Source: Candidatus Jordarchaeales archaeon
Lineage (GTDB): Archaea; Asgardarchaeota; Jordiarchaeia; Jordiarchaeales; Freyrarchaeaceae
Direction of reading: 5' to 3'
Length of the DNA: 64,000 bases
NCBI GenBank assembly: GCA_038889235.1
Contig: JAWAHN010000001.1
Span: 406,499-470,498 of the forward strand
Under the pieces are notes generated by a model that had not been told where the DNA came from, made no database searches, and saw only the letters and a list, made by a program, of their open reading frames with translations. The translations under genes were made by a program, and so were the position numbers. Positions 14,676 to 28,751 of this stretch are shown here, in pieces (position 1 is the first letter of the stretch; the number at the start of each line of letters is the position of its first letter).

Positions 14676-16519
14676 AAGGAGGATACATTGGACGAATGCT
14701 TGTGATCGACGTGAGCGATGGGAGCTACAAGGTTATAGACTGGACGACAGAGAAAAACGAGTGGCTAAAATTTGTAGGCGGAAGAGGGTTTGGAGCCAAA
14801 ATTGTTTGGGAGCAAACAGGTAAGCATACGAGCCCCTTGGGTCCAGAGAACGTGCTGGTGATGGCTGCCGGGCCGCTGACAGGGTTGCCCGTGCCCGGTC
14901 CTAGGATTTCGGTTTGCTCGCTCAGCCCGCTCACGGGAATATGGGGGGATAGCGCGGTAGGCGGGTTCGCCGGCCTCAAGCTTAAACAGTGCGGTTATGA
15001 TGCAGTAATCATCAAGGGAAGAAGGAAAAAATTCGCCTACCTGTACATAAGCGAGGACTGCGTAGAGCTCAGGGACGCCTCCCACCTTGTTGGTAAAGGC
15101 AGCATAGAGGCGCAAGAGGAGCTGAGGAAAGAGCACGGGAGCGGTGTTGCAACTTTAACAATAGGTCCCGCTGGGGAAAACCTTGTCCTCTTCGCCTGCA
15201 TAACCAGCGACTATGGGAGGCAGTCTGGCAGGACAGGTACTGGAGCGGTCATGGGGTCGAAGGGGCTTAAAGCCGTTGTTTTTGACGGAGACAGAGATGT
15301 CCCAGTGGCTGACGGAAGGGAGCTGCTCAGATTACTCGAGGAGGCTAAGGAGAGAATAATGACAGAAAATCATGAGCTCTACCGGCAGTTCAGCAAATAC
15401 GGGACAATGATGACTTTTGACTGGGCTCAAGATGTAGCTTGCCTGCCTACGAGGAATTTCCGCGAAAGCGTTTTTGACGGGGCTGAAGGAATAAACGCCA
15501 GTAGCGTTGAGGAAAAGGTTATGATGGGCAAGAGAGCGTGCTACGCGTGCCCGATATCCTGCAGGACCATTAGCGAAGTGAAACTCGATGGTGAGACTTT
15601 CTACCTCGACGGGCCCGAGTATGAAACCATGGCTCTCTTGGGCTCAAACCTTGGGATTAGCAACGTCTACGACCTTGTTGTGGCCCACTACCTTTGTGAC
15701 CACTACGGCATGGACGCCATATCAACCGGGGTAGTTGTGGGCTTTGCAATAGAGTGTGCACAGCGCGGGCTGCTGAAGCTTGACGGGTTGAAGCCTGATT
15801 GGGGAGACAGGGAGACTATTTTCAGCTTGCTTGAAAGCATTGCCTTCCGCAGGGGCATAGGAGGCATACTGGCCGAGGGAGTTAAGAAGGCCGCTGAGAT
15901 AATAGGGGGCGGCTGCGAGAACTACGCTATGCATGTTAAAGGACTTGAGCAGTCTGGGTATGAGACTAGGGCTGCTCCAGGAATGAGCCTTGCTTATGGG
16001 ACGTGCGATGTCGGAGCGCACCACAATAGGTCTACAATAATTGGCTGGGAGTCGAGAAACGACAGGCTCGGTACTGGAAGGGACAAGGTCGAGCTCCAAA
16101 TACTCCTCCAGCACCAGAGGAGCCTTTTCGACGCGCTTGGTGTTTGCAGGTTCCCGTGGTGCGAGACGAAGCTTCCATTCGAGTACTACGTGAAATATTA
16201 CAGAGCTGCAACAGGGATAGATGTAAGCGAAAGAGACTTGTTGAAGGCTTCGGAAAGAATATTCAATTTAACGAGGATGATAAGTGTCAGGCGGGGCATT
16301 TCGCGGAAAGACGACTACCCACCGAAGAGGGTTTTCAGTGAACCTCTCCCAAGCGGGCCATTTAAGGGAGTGAAGCTGGACTTAGAGAAGTACGAGCATA
16401 TGCTAGACATGTACTATGAGCTCAGGGGATGGAGCCGGGACGGAATCCCGACAAAAGAAAAATTGGAGGAGTTAGGTATACTAGAGCTCGTCGAGAAAGG
16501 GATGCAAAACTCATTCTAG
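14672..16519 (+). CDS. Tungsten-containing aldehyde:ferredoxin oxidoreductase family protein
   Basis: 615 residues, normal length. It starts GGYIGRMLVIDVSDGSY, followed by the FVGGRGFGAKIVWE and SPLTGIWGDSAVGG pterin-binding motifs. The 4Fe-4S ligands are in CYACPISCR, with a further cysteine in GVCRFPWC. The element HYGMDAISTGVVVGFAIEC binds the second pterin. The enzyme oxidises aldehydes to carboxylic acids with ferredoxin-like acceptors, using a tungsten bis-pterin site. It starts at TTG 14672, overlapping the stop of the ferredoxin gene. Its end overlaps the convergent coiled-coil gene by 9 nt. Confidence 0.93.
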   Translation: MKGGYIGRMLVIDVSDGSYKVIDWTTEKNEWLKFVGGRGFGAKIVWEQTGKHTSPLGPENVLVMAAGPLTGLPVPGPRISVCSLSPLTGIWGDSAVGGFAGLKLKQCGYDAVIIKGRRKKFAYLYISEDCVELRDASHLVGKGSIEAQEELRKEHGSGVATLTIGPAGENLVLFACITSDYGRQSGRTGTGAVMGSKGLKAVVFDGDRDVPVADGRELLRLLEEAKERIMTENHELYRQFSKYGTMMTFDWAQDVACLPTRNFRESVFDGAEGINASSVEEKVMMGKRACYACPISCRTISEVKLDGETFYLDGPEYETMALLGSNLGISNVYDLVVAHYLCDHYGMDAISTGVVVGFAIECAQRGLLKLDGLKPDWGDRETIFSLLESIAFRRGIGGILAEGVKKAAEIIGGGCENYAMHVKGLEQSGYETRAAPGMSLAYGTCDVGAHHNRSTIIGWESRNDRLGTGRDKVELQILLQHQRSLFDALGVCRFPWCETKLPFEYYVKYYRAATGIDVSERDLLKASERIFNLTRMISVRRGISRKDDYPPKRVFSEPLPSGPFKGVKLDLEKYEHMLDMYYELRGWSRDGIPTKEKLEELGILELVEKGMQNSF

Positions 16520-18133
16520 TTTTTTCGCTTTAAACCACGTCTCCTTTATGGGCCTCGAGAGTTCCTCTATGTAGCCTTCCAGCGTGCTGCATACGGCTAC
16601 CGTTTGCTCCTCTTTTTGTGGTATCCAGGCGAAAACCACTTCCTCCCTGTCCTTAACTGCCCCAATTATTTTTTCCTCGTCAGGGGTGAGAACTCTCAGA
16701 GCGGTATTTGGTCTAGAGGCGATCTTTCTCAGGAGGGATGGATCTCCCGAGGCTGCCATTTGAAGTGACACCCTAGGGCTCATCGACAATATGGCCTCCA
16801 CGTCTCCAGCCTCAACTCTCGGCATTACGAGCAGGAGCGAAGATTTGGCTGATTTAGCCACCTGCCTCACGTATTCCTTAACGTTGTTGTAGCCTGCGAC
16901 GAGGCCTACGCCTACTATTTCGGTGAAAGCTATGCTTTTCATAATACTTACTATTTCCTCTACTTTGCTTTTGACCGTTTTCAGCTCACCTGTAACCCGT
17001 TGGCTGACTGGTACTAGAGCCGAGGAAACCTTCTCTGATGTTTCAGAGCTGATCTTGGATACCGTGCTTAGTGCCTTTGACAGTTCATCTTCAACCTCTT
17101 TCAAAAGTCTAGCCGATGACAACTTGCCGGACTCTAGGGATTCTGAAAGCTTCTTGGAAACCATAATTCGTGCGTCTTCTAGAGCGCGTTTAATTTCCTC
17201 GGAAAGGGATGTCAGAGAGCGATCAACGTTGCTTTTTAAACCTCCCAAAAGCGACTCTACTTTCGACGCCAGGTTGTTAAGTTCCCCTTCCACCAGGCTC
17301 GACAGCGCTTGAGACATTCTCTCAAGACTGAATTTGACTTCCCCGTTAAAAGACGCGAAGTTTTTCTCCGCATCCAGCAGGGCAAGGTTTACTGTTTCGC
17401 CAATCTTTCTCTTAGCTTTCTCCGACTCTTGGGAAACCCTTCCCTTAACTTCTTCCAAGCTGTCCTGCAGGGAGGTGACCGTATCCTGCAACCTCTTCTG
17501 CAGCCCTTGAAGTTGTGCCACGACGTCTGAAATAGCTGACTGGATGACTCCAGACACCCTGCTTAGCGCTTCAAGTGAGAACGAGGACGACGAATCTACG
17601 AGTTCAAGCGCAAACTTCTCTATTGCCGACACGCTGCTCTTAAATGATGAGAACTGTGAAGAGACCAGCGCGGCAACCCTAGATATAGTTCCGCTTGCTT
17701 GCTCACCAACAGCCTTAGCCACGCTGCTGGCAACCTGTCTGCTGAGCGACGAAACTTCGCCTACTGTTGACGCGATAGACGACGAGGACGAATTTGACAT
17801 TTCTTTGATAGACGAGGAAGATGTCTCTAGCAGTGAAGAAGTAGCGGAAGATAGGGTGTTATAAAAGTCTTTCAATGCCGAGGATTCCTGTTCATAGAAG
17901 ACTGCAGTAAAACTTGACACTTTTTCCAAGAGAGATTTGACGGCTGTTTCGAGCTCGGCGACCTTGTCTTTCAACACTACTCCTAACTCGCCTCCCAGGG
18001 AGCTAGCCGAGGAGGAAACATATGCTTCAAGCTCGCTGACTTTCTCAAGGATTTCCTTCACTCGTTCATCTAACGCTCGCCTAGCTTCCTCCACCTTACT
18101 TTTCAACGCGTGAACCACTGACGCATCCGACAA
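16511..18133 (-). CDS. Long coiled-coil protein with C-terminal PLD/TrmB-like domain
   Basis: About 540 residues. Residues 1 to about 390 are almost uninterrupted low-complexity helix rich in Ser, Glu, Lys, Val and Leu (repeated SSxxS and heptad-like patterns), as in chemoreceptor-like or apolipoprotein-like coiled coils. The last 150 residues form a globular domain (GYNNVKEYVRQVAKSAKSSL, then TALRVLTPDEEKI, then REEVVFAWIP) resembling the effector-sensing domain of TrmB-type regulators. No membrane segment and no DNA-binding domain are seen. A TTG start at 18133 follows GGAGGGG by 6 nt; an ATG at 18208 is in frame but lacks a site. It is divergent from the Rab-like gene, so a shared role is possible but only inferred. 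Confidence 0.65.
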   Translation of the reverse strand: MSDASVVHALKSKVEEARRALDERVKEILEKVSELEAYVSSSASSLGGELGVVLKDKVAELETAVKSLLEKVSSFTAVFYEQESSALKDFYNTLSSATSSLLETSSSSIKEMSNSSSSSIASTVGEVSSLSRQVASSVAKAVGEQASGTISRVAALVSSQFSSFKSSVSAIEKFALELVDSSSSFSLEALSRVSGVIQSAISDVVAQLQGLQKRLQDTVTSLQDSLEEVKGRVSQESEKAKRKIGETVNLALLDAEKNFASFNGEVKFSLERMSQALSSLVEGELNNLASKVESLLGGLKSNVDRSLTSLSEEIKRALEDARIMVSKKLSESLESGKLSSARLLKEVEDELSKALSTVSKISSETSEKVSSALVPVSQRVTGELKTVKSKVEEIVSIMKSIAFTEIVGVGLVAGYNNVKEYVRQVAKSAKSSLLLVMPRVEAGDVEAILSMSPRVSLQMAASGDPSLLRKIASRPNTALRVLTPDEEKIIGAVKDREEVVFAWIPQKEEQTVAVCSTLEGYIEELSRPIKETWFKAKKLE

Positions 18134-18198
18134 GAAATCCCCTCCTCTTCCCCCTTCTAGAAAGAGGTTAAGTTCAAGATAAGTTTTCCGTCGGCGCG

Positions 18199-18250
18199 GT
18201 ATAAACAATAAAAGTATATTTTTAAAAATCGCTAAAAAATATATTAACAG
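18199..18250. promoter_or_regulatory. AT-rich divergent promoter region
   Basis: Dense A/T runs (TATAAACAATAAAAG, TTTTTAAAAATC, AAAAAATATATTAAC) lie between the coiled-coil gene and the Rab-like GTPase gene and provide TATA-like elements in both directions. Confidence 0.4.
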
Positions 18251-19665: not shown

Positions 19666-20196
19666 TCACTTGGTTATTTTTTGAGCCAAGTTCTTGACTA
19701 TGAGTGAGGCTAGGGATGTGAAAACGTCCTCTACGCACGTGCCAGTTTTGGCCGATGACTCGAAGTAGGGTATGTTAAGTTTGCTTGCAAGCCTTGCGCC
19801 GTCTTCAAAACTTACCTTTCTTTGGGGTGAAAGGTCGACCTTGTTTCCAACGAGGATTAAAGGTATGTTACCACAGTAGCGTTTCACCTGCGCCACCCAG
19901 TCTTCAACGTTTCTAAACGACTCAGGGTTGGTCACGTCGAAGACTACTAGTGCGCCTTGCCCTCCTTTAAAGTAGTTTGGAAGCAGAGGCTTAAACTTCT
20001 CCTGCCCACCAGTGTCCCATATTGTTAGCTTCACGGAGAGGCCGTCTATGTACACTATTTTCGAGTAGAAGTTGACCCCTAATGTCGGCATATAGTTCTC
20101 TTTGAAAGAGCCTGTCGTGAACCTGAGCGTGAGACTGGTCTTACCCACCCCTCCATCGCCAACGACGAGGACTTTGAAGTGGTAATTTGGAAGCAC
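19666..20196 (-). CDS. Rab/Ras-like small GTPase
   Basis: 176 residues. P-loop GDGGVGKTSLTLRFT; switch I YMPTLGVNFYSK; G3 WDTGGQEKFKPLLPNYFKGG; G4 NKVD; G5 ESSAKTGTCVEDVF. All catalytic elements are present, including the G3 glutamine. It lacks a C-terminal prenylation cysteine and differs clearly from the GTPase at 18358, so it is an old paralogue and not a recent copy. It starts ATG 20196 behind GGAGGAGGA. It sits divergent from the 78-residue gene at 20400. Confidence 0.93.
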   Translation of the reverse strand: MLPNYHFKVLVVGDGGVGKTSLTLRFTTGSFKENYMPTLGVNFYSKIVYIDGLSVKLTIWDTGGQEKFKPLLPNYFKGGQGALVVFDVTNPESFRNVEDWVAQVKRYCGNIPLILVGNKVDLSPQRKVSFEDGARLASKLNIPYFESSAKTGTCVEDVFTSLASLIVKNLAQKITK

Positions 20197-21007: not shown

Positions 21008-21805
21008 TTAAAGTGATGTTGAAGAGTTGTTTTTCGTGAGCGATTTTGCCGTAGTTTTGCAACTCGCTTTTTGTGACTTACTTAGTGTAGATTTTTGCGC
21101 GCTTCTGGTAACAGGTGCTTCGACTATCTTCCCATTCGAGAAAGAGATCTTTACTTCTATTGGGGTCTTCCCCCTTTGCCGGATCTCCATCTTGTCTTTT
21201 TCCAGGAATATCAGTGCGTTTGCAAGGTGGAGAATTGACTCTGTTTCAGCGTCTTCAGCTAATTTTCGTTCTAGTGTTGCTAGTATAACGCTGTTTGAAA
21301 GCTGTATTTTCGCTTTTAGAAAGAACATGAACCTTAACGTGGCTTTGGGGGAAGCAAGTGATATGATAGAGGAAAGCGAGTCGATCACTATGCGTATGCG
21401 CCCGAGAGAAGACAGCCTCATTATGGCATCAACTATTTTCGAGCTTAGGGCTGCTAGGTCTGTTGGCGCTGAGACATACGTCACCGTGACACTATCTTCC
21501 ACGGAGAAGTCTATCGTGGGGCGGCAAAGGTCTATTATCCTGTATGTCGGGGACGAGCTCTTATACTTGGAGAGATCTACTCCTAGGCTGGCGACTTGGG
21601 ACTCCACCTCCTCAGCGAAGTTCACTGTTGTAACGTATATGCTCCCCTCTCCAAGCCTTAATCCTTCGCAGAAAAACTCCATGGCTATTAGCTCTTTCCC
21701 TCCTAGTGGCTCGCCTATAACTATGCATAAGGAGCCCGGGTTGAACCCTCCGCCAAGAATGCGGTCTAGGAATTCTATTCCAGTTTTTAGCTTCACTCTT
21801 TCCAT
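21008..21805 (-). CDS. KaiC/RadA-like protein with altered Walker A
   Basis: 265 residues. It starts VKLKTGIEFLDRILGGGFNPGSLC, the normal KaiC-family opening. The P-loop reads GEPLGGKEL: the lysine is kept but the following Ser/Thr that binds Mg is Glu. The Walker B-like strand IRIVIDSLSS is present. The last 40 residues are a Ser/Thr/Lys-rich tail (AQKSTLSKSQKASCKTTAKS). It probably binds but does not hydrolyse nucleotide efficiently, so a regulatory or scaffold role is more likely. It is the last gene of the block 23345 to 21008, after the roadblock gene. Confidence 0.75.
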   Translation of the reverse strand: MERVKLKTGIEFLDRILGGGFNPGSLCIVIGEPLGGKELIAMEFFCEGLRLGEGSIYVTTVNFAEEVESQVASLGVDLSKYKSSSPTYRIIDLCRPTIDFSVEDSVTVTYVSAPTDLAALSSKIVDAIMRLSSLGRIRIVIDSLSSIISLASPKATLRFMFFLKAKIQLSNSVILATLERKLAEDAETESILHLANALIFLEKDKMEIRQRGKTPIEVKISFSNGKIVEAPVTRSAQKSTLSKSQKASCKTTAKSLTKNNSSTSL

Positions 21806-21827: not shown

Positions 21828-22190
21828 TTACGTCAACGCTTCCGCTACACTTTTACATGCTTCCTCAAGTGCCTTAACGAGGTTGGGGGCGGCTGTCTTT
21901 GATGAGAGCACTAGGAGGAACGCCTTGGAGCCTGCACCTATGATGGTGATTACTCCTCCCTCTATTTCTAGGGATAGGTGACGAGCTATTCCTCTCTTGA
22001 CGGTTTCAGCGGCTACTTCCGCGGCTCCAAGCATTGAGGCAGACATAGCGGCGAGCCTGCTAACGTTTATGTCGTGGGGCATGAGCGATTCAAGAACGCT
22101 CCCGTTTCTCATCGCGACGAGACAGCCTTCAACCCCCTCCAATGATTGGAGCCTCGTCAGAACCTTTTTAATCTTTTCCCTAAACTCCAC
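21828..22190 (-). CDS. Roadblock/LC7-domain protein
   Basis: 120 residues, one roadblock domain: LQSLEGVEGCLVAMRNGSVL, then AAMSASMLGAAEVAAETV, then GGVITIIGAGSKAFLLVL. These proteins dimerise and regulate or anchor small Ras-like GTPases (MglB-like). It lies 16 nt from the KaiC-GTPase fusion gene and 22 nt from the KaiC-like gene, all on one strand. It is the likely regulator of the fused GTPase or of the Rab-like proteins nearby. Confidence 0.88.
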   Translation of the reverse strand: MEFREKIKKVLTRLQSLEGVEGCLVAMRNGSVLESLMPHDINVSRLAAMSASMLGAAEVAAETVKRGIARHLSLEIEGGVITIIGAGSKAFLLVLSSKTAAPNLVKALEEACKSVAEALT

Positions 22191-22205: not shown

Positions 22206-23345
22206 CTACATAGAGATTATGTTAAGGAGTATGTCAACTAAGAGGAAAGTGTTAACTCTGTTTTTGGCACTGCATCCTACCACTGGAATAGACGGCGGAA
22301 TGCCGAGAATTGATCTAAGCTCTCCTGGAGGTATTGCCGACTCCAAGTCCTGTTTGTTCGCTGCCACAACTACCGGGGCCTTTCCTCGACACTTGTCAAA
22401 GAGCTCCCTAGCTCTTACGAAACTCGAAGTGTCCGCGCTATCAACCACTAGGATGAAGCCGACTGCCCCGCTCATCATCATGTCAAGTATTGGTTCGAAC
22501 TGGGGCTGACCCGGGGTTCCAAAGAACTCTATGAAGAATCCCTTGTAGTCTAGTGTTCCGTGATCAAGTGCCACGGTTGTCCCAGCTCGCTCGACGCTGA
22601 CGGCATCCTCAGCCAGCGCGTGAATAAGCGTGGTTTTTCCTGCATTGTACGGCCCGAGAACAACTATCTTTGGAAGGTATACTCTCAGCTCTCCAGGTGG
22701 GACTACTTTGACCAAGAAGAATAGGTCTTTCACGTCACCTACCCAGGCTGCCTTCTTTACCCTCATTTGGTTCTCTACCAGTAGTAGAGGGTCTGGTCTG
22801 ACTTCTAGAACACCGTCGAAGAAATGCTCTATTTCCTCAACGAGCTCACTGGTGTACGTCCATGAAGAGAAGAGGGCTATCAGTGTGGATGAGCCAACGG
22901 CTTTTAGAACATCGAGTAACGGTTTCACTTCGCCGCCGAGCGACTCCAGGAAAGTGTTTACTGAGTCGAGTACTAGGAGTGTTTTTTCGGTCGAGAGGTC
23001 AGATAACACTCTTTTAATTGAGCTGATGTCATAGGGGTTGACAATGTATCTTTCAAGGCTTTCCGCCCCGCTTAGCATGGAGTAAGCATCGACCATTACG
23101 AATTGGCCCTTTTGCTCGTATGCCTCGAGGTTTAAACGAGATTTCCTAGCTTGCCTTCTCACGCTTAAAGGGGGCTTATTATTCACGAAGTAAACTACGT
23201 TGAAGCCCTCCTCTAAGCCAACCTTAACGACGTGCAAACCGACTATTAGTGGGTCAAAGCTAGGTGAAATAACAAACATGTTTTTAGAGGATATTGGTAT
23301 GCCGCCAACCCTTCGGTCAAAGAGTGGGAGCTTTAGCCGCATCAA
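22206..23345 (-). CDS. Fusion of P-loop-less KaiC-like domain and COG2229-type GTPase
   Basis: 379 residues. Residues 1 to about 215 follow the KaiC/RadA core without a P-loop (KNMFVISPSFDPLIVG, then GFNVVYFVNNKPPLSVR, then KTLLVLDSVNTFLESLGG). Residues about 225-379 are a small GTPase: P-loop LGPYNAGKTTLIHALA, switch GTTVALDHGTLDYKG, G3 FFGTPGQPQFEPILDMM, G4 ANKQD, G5 VGCSAKNRV. The FGTPGQ form of G3 and the overall layout match the archaeal/bacterial COG2229 (SRbeta/MglA-like) group. The association of a dead KaiC fold with a GTPase in one chain is unusual. It is followed immediately by a roadblock gene. Confidence 0.85.
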   Translation of the reverse strand: MMRLKLPLFDRRVGGIPISSKNMFVISPSFDPLIVGLHVVKVGLEEGFNVVYFVNNKPPLSVRRQARKSRLNLEAYEQKGQFVMVDAYSMLSGAESLERYIVNPYDISSIKRVLSDLSTEKTLLVLDSVNTFLESLGGEVKPLLDVLKAVGSSTLIALFSSWTYTSELVEEIEHFFDGVLEVRPDPLLLVENQMRVKKAAWVGDVKDLFFLVKVVPPGELRVYLPKIVVLGPYNAGKTTLIHALAEDAVSVERAGTTVALDHGTLDYKGFFIEFFGTPGQPQFEPILDMMMSGAVGFILVVDSADTSSFVRARELFDKCRGKAPVVVAANKQDLESAIPPGELRSILGIPPSIPVVGCSAKNRVNTFLLVDILLNIISM

Positions 23346-23459: not shown

Positions 23460-24248
23460 CTAGTAGAGTATCACTATGCCGTTCTCGGTTATCGAGAAGC
23501 GTTTTTTCCCTTCGTAGTGGGGGGACCCCCTCATCTTGTATATTTCGATGTACCTGCTTCTCTTGTCTCCTTCAGGTTCCCAGTATAATATGAAGACTCC
23601 GTCAGCCATGAATTCTTCCACGCCAAACCTCGTTATGCCCGGCTTACCGTACTCGGCTTCTGTTACAAAGATAGAGGTGCACCCGTACCTTTTCAACATG
23701 CGTGATATGACGTTTAGCTCCCTTCTAACCACGCCAATGTTTCCATACTGCAGGAATAGGACGGAGATCGGGTCGAGGACTACCCTCTTGATACTACACT
23801 CTCTAACCGCTGTCTCCATAGTAGAATATAAACCATCCAACGTGAACATGTCGGGGTTAAGAGATAGGGCTTTGTCACCTATGGCGATAGCGCTAAGGTC
23901 CAGCAATACCAGCATCTGCCGCTCTATGAGGTCTTTCAGGTTCCACCTGAAATTCCTCGCATTTCTCAATATACTATCCAGGTGCTCTTCGAGTGAGACG
24001 TAAAGCCCAGGTTCACCATACTCCGCCGCGCCACGATAGAGGAACTCTAAGCAGAAAATGGACTTTCCTGCCCCAGATACACCCGATAGCAGGTAAGTAG
24101 ACCCCCTAAAGAGCCCACCCCTAACGAGCTCGTCGAACCCTCTAATCCCCGTAGGTGTCCTTTCGCCAGGAGATTCTAAAACGCGCGCCTCACGGATAAT
24201 TCTCTCCTTAAGCTCCGCCATGAACCCTGAAGAACTAGGTTTCTTCAC
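23460..24248 (-). CDS. Single-domain KaiC/RadA-like ATPase
   Basis: 262 residues. TGIRGFDELVRGGLFRGSTY leads to an intact Walker A (SGVSGAGKSIF). Then come LYVSLEEHLDSILRNA (the catalytic Glu pair EE), Walker B-like IKRVVLDPISVLFL and the C-terminal IYKMRGSPHYEGKKRFSITE, which is diagnostic of archaeal KaiC-family proteins. It is predicted to be an active ATPase or autokinase. The GTG start at 24248 follows GGAGGAGAG. Its first 14 nt overlap the upstream KaiB-like gene, so the two are translationally coupled. Confidence 0.9.
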   Translation of the reverse strand: MKKPSSSGFMAELKERIIREARVLESPGERTPTGIRGFDELVRGGLFRGSTYLLSGVSGAGKSIFCLEFLYRGAAEYGEPGLYVSLEEHLDSILRNARNFRWNLKDLIERQMLVLLDLSAIAIGDKALSLNPDMFTLDGLYSTMETAVRECSIKRVVLDPISVLFLQYGNIGVVRRELNVISRMLKRYGCTSIFVTEAEYGKPGITRFGVEEFMADGVFILYWEPEGDKRSRYIEIYKMRGSPHYEGKKRFSITENGIVILY

Positions 24249-24522
24249 GCCTCTCCTCCTCCTTCAAAGGTTCTAACACGGCTATAAGCTCTTCCTCACT
24301 AGGCAACCCTATAAAACGCCAGTTCAAGCCCACTATATCTATTGTGGGTGTTGAGATCACTCCCTCCCTCACAGCTATTTCAGGATTCTTAGATATGTCG
24401 ACTTCTTCAACCTCAAGATCCAAGTTAAGCTTTTTCAGCGATGAACGCACCGTCTTAATGACCTGGTGATACTTCGGGGTGCGACTCGACTTAAAGATGA
24501 CTATCTTGTACTCTTTGCTCAT
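24235..24522 (-). CDS. KaiB-like thioredoxin-fold protein
   Basis: 95 residues with no cysteine at all, so not a redox thioredoxin. The order KIVIFKSSRTPKYHQVIKT, then LEVEEVDISKNPEIAVREGV, then ISTPTIDIVGL matches the KaiB/KaiB-like layout: a VD-x-x-KNP-x-x-A element followed by TPT. A glutaredoxin-like relative is the alternative. Its overlap with a kaiC-type ATPase gene supports a KaiB-KaiC pairing. The ATG at 24522 is used; the longer in-frame extension to 24642 runs into the divergent promoter. Confidence 0.65.
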   Translation of the reverse strand: MSKEYKIVIFKSSRTPKYHQVIKTVRSSLKKLNLDLEVEEVDISKNPEIAVREGVISTPTIDIVGLNWRFIGLPSEEELIAVLEPLKEEERREET

Positions 24523-24619
24523 TATATTCCCCCGGGAAGAATAAACAATACTTTTGAATATAAAAATAATTATATCGATTCCTTGGGTGTCTGTTTGCTT
24601 CGCGAAGGGGGGAGTATTG

Positions 24620-25666: not shown

Positions 25667-25713
25667 GTTAAGTAGGAATACATGGTGAATTGTTACTTTC
25701 ATTCCTACTTAAC
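25667..25713. repeat. 13-bp perfect inverted repeat at the end of tnpB
   Basis: The arms GTTAAGTAGGAAT (25667-25679) and ATTCCTACTTAAC (25701-25713) flank a 21-nt loop. The hairpin covers the stop of tnpB and lies just after the radical SAM stop. It may be part of the right-end/omega-RNA structure of the element, or a bidirectional terminator between the two convergent genes. Confidence 0.7.
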
Positions 25714-26823
25714 CCTTCCCTCTCGATTAACTCATTGAGGGCTCTTTGGGGGAACCCTGCTCCCCGCATCTGAAGGTTTAATACCGCTACAACGTCTCTA
25801 TCCATTGTCAATCCGCATTTTTCGCATCGCATTATCCTGCCCCCATAGGAAGCCATGCTTCCTGAACACAGGGGGCAGACCTTGGAGGAGTTTTTAGGAT
25901 CAACATATTTTACTGGTAGGTTAAGCCATTTAAGCTTGTATTCGAGCATGAACTGAAATGCCCTTGCGTTCCACTTTGATAGCTTGCGGTTCATTTTCTT
26001 TGAGCGGTTTAGAATTCGCCTCTTTACGCCTTTCAGGTTTTCAAGTATTGCTCCGCAGCTCTTTTCTTTCAGCTCCTTCGCTATGCTTGCGGTTAGCTTA
26101 TGCATGAAGTCCCTTGCCTTATTCCTCTCACACTTAGAATACTTCTTGAGGAGCATCCTTGATGTATTAGGCTTAATCTTAGATAGCTTTTGTATCCTTT
26201 GCCGCCTGACTTCATAGGCTCTGTGGATGTGATAGAGTCCTCTTAAGTCATAGCGCCTAATCTCGCCATCTATGAGTGCCGTTACGTTTGTCAGGTTCAC
26301 ATCAAAAGAAGCCCACCTATCCGCTTTAGGCTCAACGTCCCTCTTAACCGTAACTATGAGCTCCTTCTCGGTTAGGATTAAACCTCCAACTCTGTCGAAG
26401 TCTTTCGGAATCCATGAATACTTATTCAAGTCAACCTCAAGATACCGCTTATTGGGCTCTATGCTTATCTTTAGTATGCTGTTTCTGAAGCTGAAGAGCG
26501 TGCTCTTAATGTAGACTGTTCTTCTGGTTATCTCAGGCTTACTTTCAGCTCTCCCTCTGTTGTAGAGCGTTATCCAGCCCTTAACAAGCCCTATGACTGA
26601 GTTTATTGCTGAATCGACATAGTGCTTTGAAAACCTCCAGTCTTTCAGCAGCTCACCTCTAAGCTTCCTCCTATCCTCCCTACTGAGGGTTAGACGGGCT
26701 CTATTAGAAAACCTTACATGGGCGAAAATATGCTCCAAGGCTCTCTGCTTAACCTTGAAGTATTCTTCGATTAAATCCCCCTGGAGTTCCTACTGGGATT
26801 CTGTAGCTCTTAACTGCCTCCAC
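25668..26823 (-). pseudogene. tnpB: TnpB (IS607/IS605-type RNA-guided nuclease), N-terminal frameshift
   Basis: About 385 codons in total. The opening EAVKSYRIPVGTP is in one frame; from DLIEEYFKVKQRALEHIF on it is in another. The break is at a G5 run near 26783. After that the 356-residue body is complete: RuvC Asp in WASFDVNLTN, Glu in GAILENLKGVKRR, the zinc finger CPLCSG-x-CEKCG, and the final Asp in MDRDVVAVLNLQMRG. A TTG at 26738 could still give a nearly full nuclease that lacks the first 30 residues. Decay or a single homopolymer error would both explain the break. Confidence 0.75.
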
Positions 26824-26983
26824 AGTCTTCAACCTCACTCTTAGGATAGCGGAGCTTACCAGTCGGAAGCCTAACAGCCCTAATAATACCCCTCTTCTGC
26901 CACTCCCAGAGAGTTTTAACTGAGATGTTAAATATCTTTGCAACATCTTTCGGCCTAAGCAGTTCTTCGTAATCTTCAGACAT
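26810..26983 (-). pseudogene. Truncated IS607 TnpA: helix-turn-helix domain only
   Basis: 57 residues: LLRPKDVAKIFNISVKTLWE followed by KLRYPKSEVED. This is the MerR-type DNA-binding start of IS607 serine recombinases, which normally run to about 200 residues. The frame stops exactly where tnpB begins (GTG 26823), so the catalytic domain has been deleted. It could still make a small DNA-binding protein. ATG 26983 is preferred over 27016, because the TATA box at 27021 leaves no leader for the latter. Confidence 0.75.
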
Positions 26984-27020
26984 CATTAAGATTAAAATTA
27001 AGATTAAAGTAATCAACCTC

Positions 27021-27180: not shown

Positions 27181-27963
27181 TTGAGTCAGGAAGTGGTAGC
27201 TTCAGGAGATTACGTCTTAGTCGTTCTCGACGAGAAGAGGAAGTGGCTTGTTAGGGTCGTGGAGGGGGAAACACTCCACACACATAAAGGGGTTGTAAAC
27301 ATAGGTGCATTGATAGGCATGCCTTACGGCTGCGCAGTTAGAAGCAGTAAGGGGGAGAAATTCTACATTGTAAAGCCCACGCTGGCGGACTTCGCCCTGA
27401 AAGCGAAGAGGGCGACACAGATAATCTATCCAAAGGACCTAGGGTTCATTTTGCTGAACTTGGCTGTGGGGCGGGGGAGCAGAGTGGTTGAGGCTGGTAC
27501 TGGAAGCGGGGTTCTCACAGGGGTTTTGGCGAGCTGGGTTATGCCTGAAGGGAGAGTTTACAGTTACGAGGTAAGGGAGGAGTTCTTAAAGGTGGCTAAA
27601 AAGAACTTGGAGCGCATGGGGGTTGCAGAGTATGTTGAACTTAAGAACAAGGACATACTTGAAGGGATAGAAGAAAAGGAAGTCGACGCGGTGGTACTCG
27701 ACATGGCGACGCCATGGCTAGTCGTACCCTACGCTTACGAGGCGCTTAAAGCCGGGAGGGTCATGGCTTCGTTCAGTCCGACGATAGAGCAGGTCCAGAA
27801 AACGGTGTCTGAAATGGAAAAAGTCGGATTCGTAGATATACACACATACGAGTGCCTATTGAGAGAAATAATAGTTAAAGAGGGTAGGACTAGGCCTGAA
27901 TCCTTTATGGTGGGACACACCGGGTATGTAACCTTCGGACGCAAGGTTATCAGGGAAGCTTAG
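27181..27963 (+). CDS. trmI: tRNA (adenine-N1)-methyltransferase, TrmI family
   Basis: About 260 residues. N-terminal beta domain (VVASGDYVLVVLDEKRKWLV, then LHTHKGVVNIGALIG), then QIIYPKDLGFIL and the SAM motif VVEAGTGSGVLTGVLASWV, acidic ribose-binding YSYEVREEF, and motif IV VVLDMATPW. Archaeal TrmI makes m1A at positions 57/58 of tRNA and is important for heat stability. TTG 27181 is chosen: GGTGGG lies 9 nt before it and the family starts here; the frame is open to TTG 27130. The stop overlaps the convergent gelsolin gene by 4 nt. Confidence 0.9.
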   Translation: MSQEVVASGDYVLVVLDEKRKWLVRVVEGETLHTHKGVVNIGALIGMPYGCAVRSSKGEKFYIVKPTLADFALKAKRATQIIYPKDLGFILLNLAVGRGSRVVEAGTGSGVLTGVLASWVMPEGRVYSYEVREEFLKVAKKNLERMGVAEYVELKNKDILEGIEEKEVDAVVLDMATPWLVVPYAYEALKAGRVMASFSPTIEQVQKTVSEMEKVGFVDIHTYECLLREIIVKEGRTRPESFMVGHTGYVTFGRKVIREA

Positions 27964-28751
27964 CCTAGGAGCTTCCCCACCATCTCCTTTAACTTGGAGA
28001 CCACTTTGTCCCGTTTCTCAGCTAGCCTTGAACCATAAGATATGACTAGGTCTTTTCCATCTATTGTGACCTTGGCTAGGAGACCTTCTGGAGATTCAAA
28101 CGTGAAAAATGGTTTTCCCTCTTCTACTTTGCAGCTAACGAGAAGCTCGGGAAACTCCTCCGAGAGCAGGGTGAACAATAACCCGAGCTTGGCTTTACCT
28201 ATCAGCTCGGGTTCTACTTCAGTTGGCTTCGCTTCAACGATTTTTTCGACCTCAGGTTGGGGTGGTAGTGTCGGAGCTTCCCTAACAAGTTGGGCCTGCG
28301 GAGTCCTAGCAGTTACTTCAGCCTTAGTAGGGGGCGGGGCGGGTATTTCAGCACTTGGCGGAGGCGACTCAACGACTGCTTCAACGAGCACCTTGTCTTT
28401 GGCTACGTAGTGCCTTTTAAAGATGGCATTGAGGGCGTCAAATTTCTCTTTAACTTCGGGCTCGGAGAGCTTGGACTCGTCTATTTCAACCAGTTCTTTC
28501 AAATTCCGTCCCACGTTTAGTTTACCGTACGAAAAACCACCTTTCATAACAGATTGAGCAATTCTTGCGGCGGCTCTCTTATCGACCATGCTTCTGTTCT
28601 TTCCCATCCACAAGTAGAGTCGGCTGTCCACTTCGTCTATAAGTAGAATTAGCGAGTCGCTATTTATTGCGTCTTGGCTGAAGGGAATTGGTGCTTTATC
28701 ACCTGACTCAACCTTAACCATAAGCATATATTTAGGCACGGAAGCAGACAC
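27960..28751 (-). CDS. Gelsolin-domain protein
   Basis: 263 residues. Residues about 7-110 fit one gelsolin repeat: LILLIDEVDSRLYLWMGKN (the gelsolin V-x-LW-x-G-k core) followed by the long helix KRAAARIAQSVMKGG. A Pro/Glu-rich linker (about 118-175) leads to an unrecognised 85-residue C-terminal domain. In eukaryotes and some Asgard archaea gelsolin domains sever or cap actin. No actin gene is in this window, so the partner is unknown. The GTG start at 28751 follows AGGTGG. It could instead bind other polymers or membranes. Confidence 0.75.
   Translation of the reverse strand: MSASVPKYMLMVKVESGDKAPIPFSQDAINSDSLILLIDEVDSRLYLWMGKNRSMVDKRAAARIAQSVMKGGFSYGKLNVGRNLKELVEIDESKLSEPEVKEKFDALNAIFKRHYVAKDKVLVEAVVESPPPSAEIPAPPPTKAEVTARTPQAQLVREAPTLPPQPEVEKIVEAKPTEVEPELIGKAKLGLLFTLLSEEFPELLVSCKVEEGKPFFTFESPEGLLAKVTIDGKDLVISYGSRLAEKRDKVVSKLKEMVGKLLG

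Follow-up and report, generated by a model that had tools for sequence, protein, structure and literature searches.

A conserved gene cassette of Candidatus Jordarchaeia contains a small GTPase fused to a P-loop-less KaiC domain

Does a single archaeal protein join a KaiC fold that has lost its P-loop to a Ras-type GTPase, and do the genes around it belong to one signalling unit? The outputs of archaeal KaiC ATPases are mostly unknown, and Makarova reportedly proposed in 2017 that these ATPases are signalling hubs of archaea. Here we analyse a 64,000-nucleotide stretch of a Candidatus Jordarchaeales genome (hereafter the window), in which the original prediction had placed such a fusion, followed by a roadblock protein and a KaiC-like protein with an altered Walker A motif. 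The order of these three genes is conserved in two families, and the unit is in fact larger, comprising five genes, with a canonical KaiC and a KaiB/thioredoxin-like protein added upstream (Table 1).

Table 1. Genes of the cassette and the neighbouring Rab-like GTPase, with positions in the window
Feature	Position	Strand	Remarks
KaiB/thioredoxin-like protein, ~95 aa	~24235..24528	-	ATG at 24522; longer ORF to 24642
Canonical single-domain KaiC ATPase	23460..24248	-	GVSGAGKS, LEE, VVLDP
P-loop-less KaiC domain (~3-215) fused to CvnD/COG2229-type small GTPase (~222-377)	22206..23345	-	379 aa
Roadblock/LC7 protein, MglB/CvnB-like, probable regulator of fused GTPase	21828..22190	-	Robl_LC7
Second KaiC-like protein	21008..21805	-	Degenerate Walker A GEPLGGKE
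Rab-like GTPase, ~0.8 kb downstream of cassette	19666..20196	-	Cassette membership uncertain

A P-loop-less KaiC domain and a GTPase in one chain

Both halves of the fusion are recognized by Pfam. KaiC (PF06745) matches residues 35-182 with 39.9 bits (cut-off 26.6), and at residues 226-365 Arf scores 52.7 bits (cut-off 22.3) and Ras 44.6 bits (cut-off 21.6); in the copy at locus L023, from another family (f2), the KaiC match extends over residues 3-223 (E = 7e-18, 65.3 bits). The P-loop of the KaiC half is lost in all seven copies, the Walker A position reading SPSFDPLIVG in the window and (A/S)P.(I/F)DPSIxG-like in the other six. The paired Glu (LEE/FEE in the neighbouring KaiC) is also missing, and the Walker B Asp (hhhhDS) is retained. 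Judged by these motifs, this half is a member of the KaiC fold family and not an active ATPase, in agreement with the predicted union of a dead RadA/KaiC domain and a GTPase. In the GTPase half, GxxxxGKTT, the switch I TT, TPGQ and NKQD are present in 7/7 copies. An AlphaFold monomer model of the fusion, built from a two-row alignment, has a pLDDT of 40, too low to draw on.

The reading frame is uninterrupted and the linker conserved in seven genomes of Ca. Jordarchaeia, a class of Asgard archaea (G000 and G002-G007), at identities to the window copy of 79%, 69% and, for four relatives, 47%, and dN/dS is ~0.05-0.15 in each half for unsaturated pairs. The ORF is thus a real fused protein with both halves under purifying selection. 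The open frame and the conserved linker rule out with near certainty that two genes were falsely joined in assembly or by a frame error, the latter held up as a possible refutation.

Among 227 Asgard genomes scanned, the full fusion occurs only in these seven; it was not found in G001, a genome that is 70% complete. In the rest of the scanned genomes, the listed matches to this GTPase family fall in ORFs of ~170-310 aa. The dead KaiC half gave no match in plasmids (tblastn), and a contig scan with the single fusion protein returned one Jordarchaeial record only; distant fusions may still exist outside Asgard. A cluster in G034 (L107:907-7623) looked similar to the cassette, but its layout differs. 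It encodes one intact KaiC, two KaiC-like proteins in which no P-loop can be recognised and a GTPase of 380 aa that has additional N-terminal sequence, and it is perhaps another KaiC-GTPase association. Separately, ORFs of 415-436 aa (L136, at G007:C40:49353, with similar ORFs in G004-G006) combine a divergent KaiC-like domain with a C-terminal region of ~190 aa.

Five genes in conserved order

On the minus strand, the cassette runs from the KaiB/thioredoxin-like protein through the canonical KaiC, the fusion and the roadblock protein to the second KaiC-like protein. The same five-gene order is found in L021, from the genus of the window, and in L023-L026, from family f2; in L022 the roadblock gene is the last one before the contig ends. 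Beyond the five genes, no matching neighbours are common to the flanks of families f1 and f2. The upstream KaiC is intact at Walker A, at the Glu pair and at Walker B. The gene after the fusion encodes the roadblock protein that had been predicted (Robl_LC7, 45.0 bits against a cut-off of 23), and the last gene the expected KaiC-like protein, in which GEPL(G/C)GKE stands in place of GxxxxGK(S/T) in 6/6 copies and the Glu pair is absent as well. The Rab-like GTPase downstream also occurs near the cassette in G002 (L021, 506-1066) and was not found beside the cassette in family f2.

Assignment of the small upstream protein is borderline between KaiB and thioredoxin, going by its sequence matches. 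By profile it matches an MJ0307-type thioredoxin at E = 1e-8 and KaiB at E = 8e-6, and the Pfam KaiB scores (cut-off 27 bits) are 19.4 for the window copy, 29.8 for L023 and 26.9 for L024, with similar scores for thioredoxin_3; the L023 copy passes the KaiB cut-off and ranks KaiB above thioredoxin_3. The CxxC active site of thioredoxin is absent in 7/7 copies. A monomer model of the window protein (pLDDT 80) has the order beta-alpha-beta-alpha-beta-beta-alpha, that of thioredoxin; the switched form of KaiB has this order too. Thioredoxin-like relatives with a CxxC (L101-L103, family f13) do not adjoin KaiC.

Several other genes of the window lie around the cassette. A TnpB-type transposase (Cas12f1-like TNB, OrfB_IS605; 25668-27016, minus strand), with an adjacent MerR/HTH_17 ORF, is IS607-like; no TnpB match was found between the same two flanking genes in L021 and L022, and the gene therefore looks like a lineage-specific insertion. 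A weak gelsolin-repeat protein (27960-28751, minus strand; 19.1 bits against a cut-off of 21) is conserved in G002 and G003. On the other side lies a gene for a 565-aa Ser-rich coiled-coil protein (16511-18208, minus strand), whose relationship to a coiled-coil protein beside KaiC in L106 is unconvincing (E = 0.011).

The GTPase is CvnD-type and adjoins a roadblock gene

The predicted COG2229-like character of the GTPase is borne out by its GTT...TPGQ motifs and by its best plasmid relatives, CvnD-type 'ATP/GTP-binding proteins' of Streptomyces, Thermus and Deinococcus. A roadblock gene is present in 3/3 of the plasmid loci inspected. In the cassette, a Robl_LC7-domain gene directly adjoins the fused-GTPase gene; by profile, its product matches CvnB5 (3leq, E = 6.7e-7) as well as MglB (E ~ 1e-3). 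In the Mfp conservon, MfpB (CvnD) reportedly has MfpD (CvnB) as its GAP, and the CvnC homologue is given as a probable GEF (PMC13343842). Because of the CvnD-type relatives with roadblock genes, the CvnB5 and MglB matches and the MfpD report, we propose the roadblock protein as a regulator of the fused GTPase. Given the 12 roadblock matches and 17 KaiC matches in genome G000, partners may also come from elsewhere.

Two known systems invite comparison. As in conservons (CvnA-D; Mfp), a COG2229/CvnD-type GTPase has an MglB-type roadblock gene nearby and a sensor/ATPase protein upstream. However, neither a CvnA histidine kinase nor a CvnC DUF742 protein is found in the conserved five-gene block, where KaiC and the KaiB-like protein take their place, and the GTPase forms one chain with a dead KaiC. 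By analogy, the cassette would work like a conservon without being a member of that group. As in the MglA/MglB polarity switch, a small GTPase adjoins a roadblock regulator of the homodimer type. The usual Asp of DxxGQ is absent from the fused GTPase and PGQ is retained, a state that MglA shares. By contrast, the MglA/MglB system has no KaiC and occurs in other hosts, whereas the Jordarchaeial GTPase bears an N-terminal dead KaiC.

A parallel cassette in Thorarchaeia

We traced weak hits of the small protein and of the KaiC half to a second cassette, in family f4. Its order is the same in 13/13 loci (roadblock, thioredoxin with CxxC (CAFCPR), KaiC, KaiC-like protein with intact P-loop and a ~765-aa protein); these loci were chosen for matching the probes, so the count describes consistency of layout and not prevalence. 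A divergent Rab-like GTPase gene is a neighbour in 12/13 loci. In G198, this Rab (L104:7928-8476) is identical to Thor-Rab (PDB 7ezb) over 174/174 residues, which identifies family f4 as Thorarchaeia. Since the Thor-Rab gene lies divergently beside a roadblock-thioredoxin-KaiC-KaiC cassette, the cassette, whose roadblock gene lies at L104:7412-7807, provides a candidate regulator for Thor-Rab. Arg37, which Tran et al. aligned with the Arg finger of MglA, is retained in 11/12 cassette Rabs. As among Asgard Rab and roadblock proteins (Thor-Rab 7ezb, PMC10933270), a roadblock gene is near a small GTPase, the Thor-Rab gene itself lying beside the Thorarchaeial cassette; in contrast, the fused GTPase of the window is of CvnD rather than Rab type. 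The roadblock of the Thorarchaeial cassette does not resemble a crystallised one: against the PDB, the L091 copy reaches no better than E = 5.6e-5.

A KaiC tree joins neither the KaiCs of the Jordarchaeial and Thorarchaeial cassettes nor the fusion KaiC domain and the third Thorarchaeial gene. Recurrent assembly and old divergence are therefore both possible. A single operon inherited in both lineages is unsupported by this tree, whose branches are long, and the parallel may reflect independent assembly.

A proposed KaiC-coupled G-protein module

Given the observed gene content, conservation and motif states, we consider it an even chance that the five genes form one KaiC-coupled G-protein signalling module; from knowledge of the families, we infer its physical interactions (binding and ring docking), direction, GAP activity and output. 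The canonical KaiC would be an ATP-driven hub, presumably a hexameric ring, which the KaiB-like thioredoxin-fold protein would read. The dead KaiC domain of the fusion would dock on or insert into this KaiC assembly and would thereby put the CvnD/MglA-type GTPase under KaiC control. A dimer of the adjacent roadblock protein would bind the fused GTPase and determine its nucleotide state. The dimer would most likely act as a GAP, the role reported for MfpD, and MglB is its structural model. The second, degenerate KaiC could be a non-catalytic adaptor or inhibitor, and output would pass through the GTP-bound GTPase to an effector.

The main rival to this module, which we regard as unlikely, treats the dead KaiC half as a ligand sensor of the MEDS/DcmR type; this sensor would switch the GTPase of its own chain, and the neighbouring KaiCs would work separately. 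Weak MEDS-like matches (PF14417) at residues 39-92 of the fusion (E = 0.009 for the window copy and 7e-4 for L023) make such a sensor possible, and loss of the P-loop from an otherwise conserved KaiC half would fit it; but these matches score well under the MEDS cut-off (16.3 and 19.8 against 29.8 bits), whereas KaiC passes its own in both proteins, and the conserved neighbours of the fusion are KaiCs. Less likely still, the genes could be functionally separate neighbours kept together through shared expression only (operon hitch-hiking), as might happen in a genome with many KaiC, roadblock and GTPase genes. Against this, the KaiC fold and the GTPase are covalently fused, gene order is conserved while the flanks are rearranged, and a similar gene set occurs in Thorarchaeia. 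It is very unlikely that the module is a thiol-redox device, in which KaiC would receive redox information from the thioredoxin-like protein and the GTPase would pass it on: the Thorarchaeial protein at the same position has an intact CxxC, but SRTPKY replaces CAFCPR in the window copy, and both redox Cys are gone in 7/7 Jordarchaeial copies. This rules out thiol exchange by the small protein in Jordarchaeia, and a redox reading could fit Thorarchaeia only.

Discussion

The unit had been called undescribed, which holds for the fusion and not for the gene pairings of the unit. No paper treating KaiC, a small GTPase, an archaeal host and a fusion together was found in the literature covered, which did not extend to the 2017 KaiC-hub review. 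GTPase-roadblock pairs (MglA/MglB, CvnD/CvnB) are known, as are archaeal KaiCs with a thioredoxin-family KaiB-like partner (arCOG01174, PMC4858521). As in those pairs and in KaiBC, a single-domain KaiC directly follows a KaiB/thioredoxin-fold gene; unlike them, the Jordarchaeial cassette adds a GTPase and a roadblock protein. The cassette thus seems to connect known switch components in a new way.

A broader reading of KaiC-coupled switching is tentative and, in our estimate, rather improbable: Asgard KaiC rings, read by a thioredoxin-derived KaiB-like protein, would time or gate small-GTPase switches via roadblocks, with Jordarchaeia having hard-wired the GTPase to the ring by fusion to a dead KaiC and Thor-Rab acting in a sister circuit. 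In Lokiarchaeon MK-D1, small GTPase genes as a rule do not share an operon with a roadblock gene (Tran et al. 2024), so that their cognate regulators are hard to name. The cassette described here names a concrete candidate for a KaiC output, a Ras-type GTPase, together with its probable regulator. It would provide a GTPase-roadblock pair for Jordarchaeia and, through its Thorarchaeial counterpart, a roadblock candidate to pair with Thor-Rab, whose structure is solved.
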